Of a stretch of DNA of 63,899 nucleotides, positions 35,129-37,117 are shown one piece after another. Under the pieces are notes generated by a model. The model had not been told where the DNA came from, searched no databases, and saw only the letters and a list, made by a program, of their open reading frames with translations. The DNA lies in NCBI GenBank assembly GCA_029981855.1, contig JARRCS010000016.1, positions 1 through 63,899 on the forward strand, read 5' to 3'. Numbering within the stretch: the stretch's first letter is position 1; each line of letters opens with the position of its first letter. A program made the position numbers and the translations under genes. The stretch comes from Halanaerobiales bacterium (GTDB lineage: Bacteria > Bacillota > Halanaerobiia > Halanaerobiales > DTU029).

Positions 35129-35218
35129 GCCGAAGTGGCGGAATTGGCAGACGCGCTGGACTCAAAATCCAGTGGGCCTTTAAAGCTCGTGTGGGTTCGA
35201 CCCCCACCTTCGGCACCA
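35129..35218 (+). tRNA. tRNA-Leu (CAA)
   Basis: Type II tRNA with long variable arm: acceptor GCCGAAG / CTTCGGC, anticodon arm CTGGA-CTCAAAA-TCCAG (anticodon CAA), variable arm TGGGCCTTTAAAGCTCGT, T-arm GTGGGTTCGACCCCCAC, discriminator A, encoded CCA. Confidence 0.96.
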
Positions 35219-35322: not shown

Positions 35323-35351
35323 TTTACTTTTAGCCTGTTATATGCTATAAT
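35323..35351 (+). promoter_or_regulatory. mgtE promoter (extended -10)
   Basis: TTTACT (35323-35328), 17-bp spacer, TGCTATAAT giving an extended -10 with TATAAT at 35346-35351. Transcription would start just before the M-box. Confidence 0.7.
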
Positions 35352-35374
35352 TATTCCGAACACAATAGAATATA

Positions 35375-35535
35375 CCTCCGTTAGGTGAGGCTTCTATACA
35401 GATATATGCTACTGCCCGGAAACATCGAAAGATGCCAATGGGTTAACAGGTATTACCGGAATAAGGTTTTACCTAATGTAGCTGGATTTAACATAATCCA
35501 AAGCTGTATAGTGCTAAAGCTCAACGAGTGGGGAC
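35375..35535 (+). promoter_or_regulatory. M-box (ykoK) magnesium riboswitch
   Basis: The leader carries the M-box consensus blocks in order: CCTCCGTTAGGTGAGGCTTC, GCTACTGCCCGGAAACATC, AAAGATGCCAATGGGT, TACCTAATGTAGCTGGATTT, and GTGCTAAAGCTCAACGAG. It folds around Mg2+ and, when saturated, favours the terminator at 35563. It precedes the magnesium transporter gene mgtE, the classic M-box target. Confidence 0.95.
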
Positions 35536-35562
35536 CGATCTTCCAGTATGATTAATACTAGA

Positions 35563-35595
35563 CCTTTCCACTCGTATGGAAAGGTTTTTTTATTT
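35563..35595 (+). terminator. M-box expression-platform terminator
   Basis: Stem CCTTTCCA / TGGAAAGG with loop CTCGTA, followed by TTTTTTTATTTT. The upstream CGAGTGG (about 35525) can pair with CCACTCG in the stem, giving an antiterminator alternative. Confidence 0.9.
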
Positions 35596-35628
35596 TGTTC
35601 AAAATATGTTTATGAAAGGGGTGGTAGG

Positions 35629-35742
35629 ATGGACGCGGACCCTGACGATTTAAAAGTAAAAAATACAATTGAACTTCAGCAAAGGGATAGTGTTATTCTG
35701 CTACCCCGGAGTCAATATTCTCCCGGGGTAATCTTCCAGTGA
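35629..35742 (+). CDS. Acidic leader ORF upstream of mgtE
   Basis: 37 codons starting ATG at 35629 after AAGGGGTGG: MDADPDDLKVKNTIELQQRD, then 17 more ending in VIFQ and TGA, 34 bp before mgtE. The N-terminus is Asp/Pro rich, a property shared with enterobacterial mgtL-type leaders whose Asp/Glu/Pro runs destabilise ribosomes at low Mg2+. A GC-rich hairpin TACCCCGG/CCGGGGTA (35702-35730) lies in its 3' end. Coding status is a hypothesis from start, RBS and position. Confidence 0.4.
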   Translation: MDADPDDLKVKNTIELQQRDSVILLPRSQYSPGVIFQ

Positions 35743-35776
35743 ATAATTGTGATACTAAAATGTAAGGAGGGGGAGT

Positions 35777-37117
35777 ATGACAAGAGAATTAATGGAACTT
35801 ATAGACAATAGAAAAATTTCAATTGCAAAGGATCAACTAAAAAAAATGCAGGCAGTAGATATTGCAGAAATAATAAATGAAATGGACGGGAAAAACAGCT
35901 TGCTAACGTTTAGGTTACTCTCAAAAGAAGTGGCAACAGAAACATTTTCATACCTGTCTAGAGACAAACAGGCTGAATTATCTATATTGATTAATGAAAA
36001 TGAACTAAAGGATATTATTGAAGATTTACATTTTGATGATATGATAGATTATCTTGAAGAAATGCCTGCCAACGTAGTAAAAAAGATATTGAAAAATACA
36101 AGCGATGTTGAAAGAAAACTAATAAATCAGTTTCTGAATTACCCGGATAACTCTGCAGGAAGTATTATGACAATAGAATACGTAGATTTAAAAGCTGGTA
36201 TGACAGTTGGTGAGGCACTGAAACATGTACGCAAGACTGCCCCTGATAAAGAAACTATATATACATGCTATGTTATTGATAGTACAAGGATTCTGGAAGG
36301 CATTATATCCTTAAAAAGCCTTGTACTGGCTGATCCACAGAAGAAAGTAAAAGATGTAATGAAAACAAACTTCATAAGTGTTAACACATATAGCGACCAG
36401 GAAGAAGTAGCAGCACTTTTTAAAAAATATGATTTATTATCAGTACCGGTGGTAGACCAGGAAAACAGGCTTGTGGGAATTATTACAATAGACGATATTG
36501 TTGACGTTATAGATGAAGAAAATACTGAAGACTTTCATAAGATGGCTGCAATTCAGCCCTCGGATGAATTGTATCTATCTGCTAGTATTTTTAGCCTTGC
36601 CCGGAAAAGAATACAGTGGCTGCTTATCTTAATGGTGTCTGCCACAATATCAGGCTATATAATCCGTAAATATGAGGCAGTTCTTCAATCGATGGTCGTG
36701 CTTGCAGCCTTTATGCCAATGCTAATGGATACAGGGGGAAACGCGGGGTCTCAGTCCTCTACTCTGGTTATCCGTGGTCTTGCCCTGGGAGAAATTAAGC
36801 TTAAAGATTTTCTTAAAGTTATATGGAAAGAGATAAGGGTTAGCCTGCTTGTAGGTACTGCACTGGGTCTAATTAATTTTATACGGATATTGTATATTGA
36901 AAGTAGTAGTATACAGGTAGCTCTTACCGTATCAATAACCTTAGTAGTAACTATTGTTGTAGCAAAAGTATTAGGTGGAATACTGCCCCTTATAGCCAAG
37001 AGTCTAAAAATCGACCCTGCAATTATGGCCAGCCCACTCATTACAACAATAGTAGATGCCGCAGCCCTAATTACTTACTTTAGAACTGCTTCATGGATAA
37101 TAGGTATGAGCTTTTAA
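35777..37117 (+). CDS. mgtE: Magnesium transporter MgtE
   Basis: 446 residues with the MgtE order: N-terminal superhelical domain (about 1-125), two CBS domains (about 130-250; DVMKTNFISVNTY, VDQENRLVGIITIDDIVDVID), a connecting helix, and five membrane helices from about 280 with PMLMDTGGNAGSQSSTLVIRG, the Mg2+ pore region. Channel closing is controlled by Mg2+ binding to the N/CBS domains; expression is controlled by the M-box upstream. RBS AAGGAGGGGGAG. Confidence 0.96.
   Translation: MTRELMELIDNRKISIAKDQLKKMQAVDIAEIINEMDGKNSLLTFRLLSKEVATETFSYLSRDKQAELSILINENELKDIIEDLHFDDMIDYLEEMPANVVKKILKNTSDVERKLINQFLNYPDNSAGSIMTIEYVDLKAGMTVGEALKHVRKTAPDKETIYTCYVIDSTRILEGIISLKSLVLADPQKKVKDVMKTNFISVNTYSDQEEVAALFKKYDLLSVPVVDQENRLVGIITIDDIVDVIDEENTEDFHKMAAIQPSDELYLSASIFSLARKRIQWLLILMVSATISGYIIRKYEAVLQSMVVLAAFMPMLMDTGGNAGSQSSTLVIRGLALGEIKLKDFLKVIWKEIRVSLLVGTALGLINFIRILYIESSSIQVALTVSITLVVTIVVAKVLGGILPLIAKSLKIDPAIMASPLITTIVDAAALITYFRTASWIIGMSF

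Follow-up and report, generated by a model that had tools for sequence, protein, structure and literature searches.

Does the mgtE mRNA of this Halanaerobiales bacterium check Mg2+ only once, through its M-box riboswitch, or a second time, through a short ORF lying between the riboswitch and the transporter gene? The stretch of DNA analysed here (63,899 nt, hereafter the window) represents one contig of a 2.59-Mb genome, and all positions below refer to it.

Organisation of the mgtE locus

The first-pass annotation had placed an M-box, its terminator, a 37-codon ORF with a ribosome-binding site and a product beginning MDADPDDL, and then mgtE in this order, and every coordinate that matters was correct (Table 1). 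The M-box matched the RF00380 covariance model over its full length (1–169) and above the gathering score. The terminator hairpin (35,560–35,587; dG −13.8, z −4.2) sits between the aptamer and mgtE. The product of the leader ORF (ATG 35,629–35,631, stop 35,740–35,742) is MDADPDDLKVKNTIELQQRDSVILLPRSQYSPGVIFQ, and 34 nt separate its stop codon from the mgtE start. The locus thus resembles the MgtL type in having a short ORF with a ribosome-binding site 5' of a Mg2+ transporter gene, and in the conserved acidic and Pro-rich first residues of that ORF (MDADPDD; family statistics below). The hairpin claimed at the end of the ORF (35,702–35,730) was also located as described (dG −16.4, z −3.3) and was equalled by only 1 of 200 shuffles. 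A tRNA gene (35,129–35,215) ends ~110 nt 5' of the mgtE promoter-like site. The 10-mer ATCTTCCAGT occurs both before the M-box terminator (35,539–35,548) and at the end of the leader ORF (35,730–35,739), which may be chance.

Table 1. Features of the mgtE transcript in the window.
Feature	Position	Strand	Evidence
Promoter-like site TTTACT-17-TATAAT, extended −10 (TGnTATAAT)	35323..35351	+	Consensus scan, 10/12 matches with TG
M-box (ykoK/Magnesium) riboswitch aptamer, RF00380	35370..35539	+	cmscan 156 bits, E 9.6e-36
Expression platform of the M-box: intrinsic terminator (hairpin and U-run)	35560..35596	+	Hairpin 35560-35587
Leader ORF Shine-Dalgarno region GAAAGGGGTGG	35614..35625	+	Duplex dG −11.7 with 16S tail
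Leader ORF, 37 aa, MgtL-like acidic/Pro N-terminus (MDADPDDL...)	35629..35742	+	N-terminus kept in relatives
Attenuator element 1, 5' arm of hairpin inside distal leader	35702..35711	+	Folding
Attenuator element 2, contains AAUAUUCUCCCGGGGUA	35712..35730	+	Partner is either element 1 or the mgtE start region (Shine-Dalgarno site, AUG)
mgtE Shine-Dalgarno site with AUG (element 3)	35764..35779	+	Duplex dG −11.6 with 16S tail
mgtE, 446 aa, MgtE_N, CBS and MgtE domains	35777..37117	+	Pfam

Conservation of the leader and selection on its first codons

We surveyed 157 non-redundant Bacillota M-box loci, 156 of which had a recognisable main gene, and took as the leader the first start codon preceded by a strong Shine-Dalgarno site, blind to the encoded peptide. 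The control comprised 208 upstream regions, taken from ten of the surveyed genomes (20 unrelated stretches of 20 kb) and from the flanks of the window; it replaced an earlier control drawn from the fetched loci, which was contaminated by leader-bearing mgtE genes lacking an M-box. A leader was picked at 101/156 M-box loci compared to 5/208 control regions, hence its occurrence exceeds chance, whilst 55 M-box loci had no leader by this rule. Residue 2 was acidic in 78 of 96 non-redundant leaders (Asp 67, Glu 11), residue 4 was most often Asp (34) or Gly (29) and residue 5 was Pro in 51. The pattern M[DE]x0-2P fitted 60/96 leaders and 0/208 gene N-termini (p ~1e-38); it matched none of the five ORFs picked in control regions and none of the leaders when read in shifted frames. 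Leaders were found in 39 families, with Asp or Glu at residue 2 in 32 and the full motif in 24. As judged from sequence, the Met-Asp-x-x-Pro leader is real and widespread before Mg2+-transporter genes in more than 20 Bacillota families.

The same start was seen close to the window organism. The nearest mgtE relative (L032, MgtE 74% identical) has MDSGPGSLDNY... in the equivalent position, and a member of the same family (L013) and one of the same class (L010) have MDTDPASQ... and MDADPGSRP..., respectively. L006, a same-family relative with an M-box, had no leader by the blind rule. As these three relatives and at least 24 families retain the ORF with its acidic/Pro start, the objection that the ORF is not conserved fails, and the proposed tandem of an M-box and an MgtL-like leader is real as an architecture. 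The likeness is confined to the start, with signs of selection limited to roughly the first five codons.

Across 33 comparable, non-independent pairs, pN/pS was 0.33 in codons 2–6 versus 0.97 in codons 7–20, a large contrast that points to purifying selection on the former and its absence from the latter. Synonymous variation was present at the kept residues (Asp2 as GAC in 38 and GAT in 29 leaders; all four Gly codons used; Pro codons varying too). Past about residue 8 the leaders have nothing in common, and likeness to MgtL did not extend beyond the first five residues. Because the distal peptides are dissimilar even within the set, common descent with MgtL is not claimed.

Codon usage near the start was also biased. 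Ser codons at positions 6–9 of the 96 loci were AGT in 44/59 cases, compared to 41/187 further along the leaders and 76/446 in the main genes, and the Pro5 codon was CCT in 37/51. A −1-frame hidden stop right after MDxxP was considered and rejected as mostly an effect of the amino-acid sequence (z ~4; excess in control codons too).

Leaders outside the M-box context

A genome-wide search for a Shine-Dalgarno site followed by ATG, Asp, x, Asp/Gly/Glu and Pro gave matches in 23 of 398 Bacillota genomes, compared to ~9 for the reversed-pattern control. Eighteen of the 23 matches precede mgtE, corA or an M-box-linked transporter: 11 behind an M-box and seven more directly 5' of corA or mgtE without one. 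One of these seven (L248) lies shortly 3' of a promoter-like stretch. The leader motif also occurred in 27/62 mgtE loci without a detected M-box, and several corA genes have MDxGP or MDDP leaders. Given that M-box-free mgtE and corA genes carry it, the leader is, by its genomic distribution, a separate module, often but not always stacked on the M-box. To regard it as special to the mgtE of the window would therefore be wrong; it is common, also without an M-box and before corA.

Several variants were observed. Oscillospiraceae and related Clostridia have a compact MDTVPG/MDAVPG leader of 13–24 codons before M-box-free mgtE (L075, L081, L083, L088, L089, L093, L095, L105). Three Treponema/Spirochaete mgtE loci without an M-box (L078, L079, L091) have a Shine-Dalgarno-led ORF that contains DTDSDPYGSK internally, which may be a related form of the MDxxP-leader idea in another phylum. 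At L115 (G055:C41:1088-1755), three tandem M-box aptamers with a 248-nt period precede one mgtE. The M-box-linked gene of L003 (1-3163) encodes an ABC-type permease (BPD_transp_1, Pfam), as do those of L147 and L176 by resemblance only; the M-box is followed by a leader at L003 and L176 and not at L147. This permease, which in several genera stands in the place of a known Mg2+ transporter, is possibly part of a Mg2+ ABC importer.

Predicted RNA pairing between the leader and the main start

Many non-overlapping leaders have the same three-part layout: element 1 is G-rich and lies in the distal leader, element 2 resembles CCUCC and lies close to the leader stop, and element 3 is the Shine-Dalgarno site of the main gene. 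At L220 and L222, element 3 almost repeats the sequence of element 1, and element 2 complements each of them; at L216, L218 and L205, a terminator-like U-run follows the 2:3 hairpin. Clear switches were identified at L192, L133 and L165 and, by complementarity, at L220 and L222. Across 60 loci, pairing reached p ≤ 0.05 in 23 for elements 1:2 (combined p 2e-17) and in 11 for elements 2:3 (combined p 3e-7), relative to shuffle nulls that ignore locus relatedness. The predicted unpaired fraction of the main Shine-Dalgarno site was 0.39 with intact leaders versus 0.29 with shuffled ones (60 leaders, p 0.003), and fell to 0.32 when the leader was covered to 12 nt before its stop (p 0.019). With the leader covered up to the stop codon, equilibrium folding gave no difference between states across the 60 leaders (p 0.34). 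In these models, the polarity agrees with a gene that is switched off when its leader is completed and on when the leader is aborted, as reported for mgtL, corL and mgtQ. In another 22/96 leaders the ORF overlaps the main start. Such ORFs may partly be chance open frames; however, a near-constant overlap of 47–61 nt in several families argues otherwise.

In the window, the two pairings were nearly equal in an RNA spanning 35,644–35,789 (1:2, −27.4; 2:3, −28.7 kcal/mol), and 1:2 won in a longer RNA. The 2:3 helix would mask the mgtE Shine-Dalgarno site and AUG, whilst the site was predicted to be free (0.85–0.90) in most states. A ribosome edge near 35,712 lowered its unpaired probability from 0.90 to 0.47 and further advance freed it again; 2:3 competed only in the short RNA or with the edge at this position. 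Pairing p values were 0.10 and 0.32. Mutually exclusive structures were significant across the 60 loci, and the window appears bistable, not robust. Given the near-equal pairings and the transient masking, we rate the output step modelled for the window as plausible but weakly supported. Across the family this layout is significant; for the hairpin of the window itself, a role has weak support.

A two-layer model and its alternatives

We propose that Mg2+ is checked twice in succession on the mgtE mRNA, by the M-box and then at a leader where ribosome drop-off would be converted into output by an attenuator or by overlap (probability roughly 0.6); Mg2+-dependence, drop-off, output direction and the detail of output in the window are what we infer here. 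At high Mg2+, the M-box would terminate transcription, and the translated leader would be present only on read-through RNA. Its MDADP start belongs to the conserved Bacillota family M-D-x-[D/G]-P. At low Mg2+, ribosomes whose exit tunnel is still nearly empty would, by analogy with MgtL, drop off or pause at MDADP. At adequate Mg2+, they would carry on through the leader, with completed translation giving less transporter. In non-overlapping leaders, the ribosome would melt 1:2 and release element 2 to pair with the transporter Shine-Dalgarno site or to form a terminator, whereas early drop-off would leave 1:2 paired and the transporter on. In overlapping leaders, the elongating ribosome would run over the transporter start site and cover it, as the ORF extends past that start. 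We lean, a little more cautiously, towards the wider reading that MDxxP leaders form an extensive class of Mg2+ sensors in Bacillota that work through the ribosome, with no visible descent from MgtL, lying before mgtE and corA and giving most M-box genes a two-layer switch with several output platforms.

The signal sensed could be another. A translated and selected leader might impose a constitutive or EF-P/ABC-F-dependent pause, not a Mg2+-dependent drop-off, and so report ribosome state or tune basal expression. Many leaders read MDSGP or MDAGP, with a single acid, weaker than the EPDP of MgtL, and EttA modulates MgtL pausing (PMC11282234). Nevertheless, we consider such a pause rather unlikely: near-confinement to Mg2+-transporter genes, many of them behind a Mg2+ riboswitch, points to Mg2+.

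It is more doubtful still that the leader senses nothing, merely covering the mRNA after the M-box terminator and opening the mgtE start through coupling or reinitiation. Leader stops often lie 5–50 nt 5' of the main start, and the gap in the window is of this order, but neither the restriction of selection to codons 2–6 nor the 1:2 pairing in the distal leader would be explained. Equally doubtful is that the ORF of the window is a decayed or non-functional member, leaving the M-box as sole regulator there. Its ambiguous output pairing and the leaderless L006 would agree with decay, yet the strong Shine-Dalgarno site, the full MDADP motif and the strong hairpin are intact, and two close relatives have the leader. 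An MgtP-type sensor of starvation for proline or another amino acid, reading charged tRNA-Pro, is very improbable: Pro is among the most conserved leader residues and Salmonella MgtP operates in this way (PMC3641672), but the early Pro is usually one codon at residue 5, Asp2 is more conserved, and in some leaders, such as those beginning MADDDD, the start is acidic with no early Pro.

Implications for Mg2+ sensing

The two-layer model suggests that Bacillota often check Mg2+ twice, by RNA and then by ribosome. If this is true, many genes thought to be controlled by the M-box only are also ribosome-gated, and Mg2+ sensing via ribosome destabilisation extends beyond enterobacteria, having either arisen repeatedly or being ancient. 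The leader set offers dozens of cases ready for testing in harmless laboratory species. In textbooks the M-box is a riboswitch with a single input, and reporters built on it are used to follow free Mg2+ in living cells. Two loci whose MgtE we take to be Bacillus-like (L161, L179) carry the leader. One study employed the full-length B. subtilis mgtE 5'UTR and concluded that free Mg2+ is lower in a ribosome mutant (PMC11567004); if that 5'UTR has this leader, M-box reporters may respond to ribosome stability itself.

Comparison with known systems

In the introduction of PMC12810186, the B. subtilis ykoK/mgtE M-box, whose aptamer and terminator logic is identical to that of the window, is described as a single RNA sensor and a leader ORF goes unmentioned. 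The same source describes uORF2 (Rv1805A) of the M. tuberculosis Mbox-pe20 locus, which, like the Bacillota leaders, is a small conserved ORF that follows an M-box directly and has a conserved N-terminus with a Pro (residue 7). Its role is left open by the authors, who do not link it to ribosome destabilisation; it is Mycobacterium-specific and lies behind a translational M-box with Rho. Our search of the open-access literature returned no paper describing MDxxP leaders in Bacillota, their combination with an M-box or their occurrence before M-box-free corA and mgtE, an absence that is not proof; the MDxxP leader behind an M-box is apparently undescribed in Bacillota.

Leader-based control of Mg2+ transporter genes has been reported for mgtL and corL (PMC11552253, PMC11282234), and the principle linking an acidic/Pro nascent chain, Mg2+ and a transporter is already known from enterobacterial MgtL and mgtQ. 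For CorL of E. coli and Salmonella corA, translation of the uORF is inverse to corA expression and Mg2+-modulated (PMC11552253); CorL differs in its UUG start, single Pro and Rho-dependence from the MDxGP/MDDP leaders of Bacillota corA. mgtQ, an ORF between Salmonella mgtC and mgtB, shares acidic-codon destabilisation of ribosomes (Asp2 and Glu5) and alternative stem-loops that uncover the mgtB ribosome-binding site (PMC8092293), but has eight codons and lies inside an operon, with a four-segment fold and no riboswitch upstream. A parallel in position and start is MgtL (MEPDP; mgtA of E. coli and Salmonella), where low Mg2+ or acid/Pro-slowed translation gives more transporter (PMC11282234, PMC11552253). 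MgtL is likewise a short ORF 5' of a Mg2+ transporter gene, with acid and Pro at residues 2–5 and the start pattern M-[DE]-x-[DG]-P. Its output is Rho termination in another RNA fold without an M-box, whereas the Bacillota leaders encode unrelated peptides past residue 5, precede mgtE and corA, and would act through Shine-Dalgarno sequestration, terminators or overlap.
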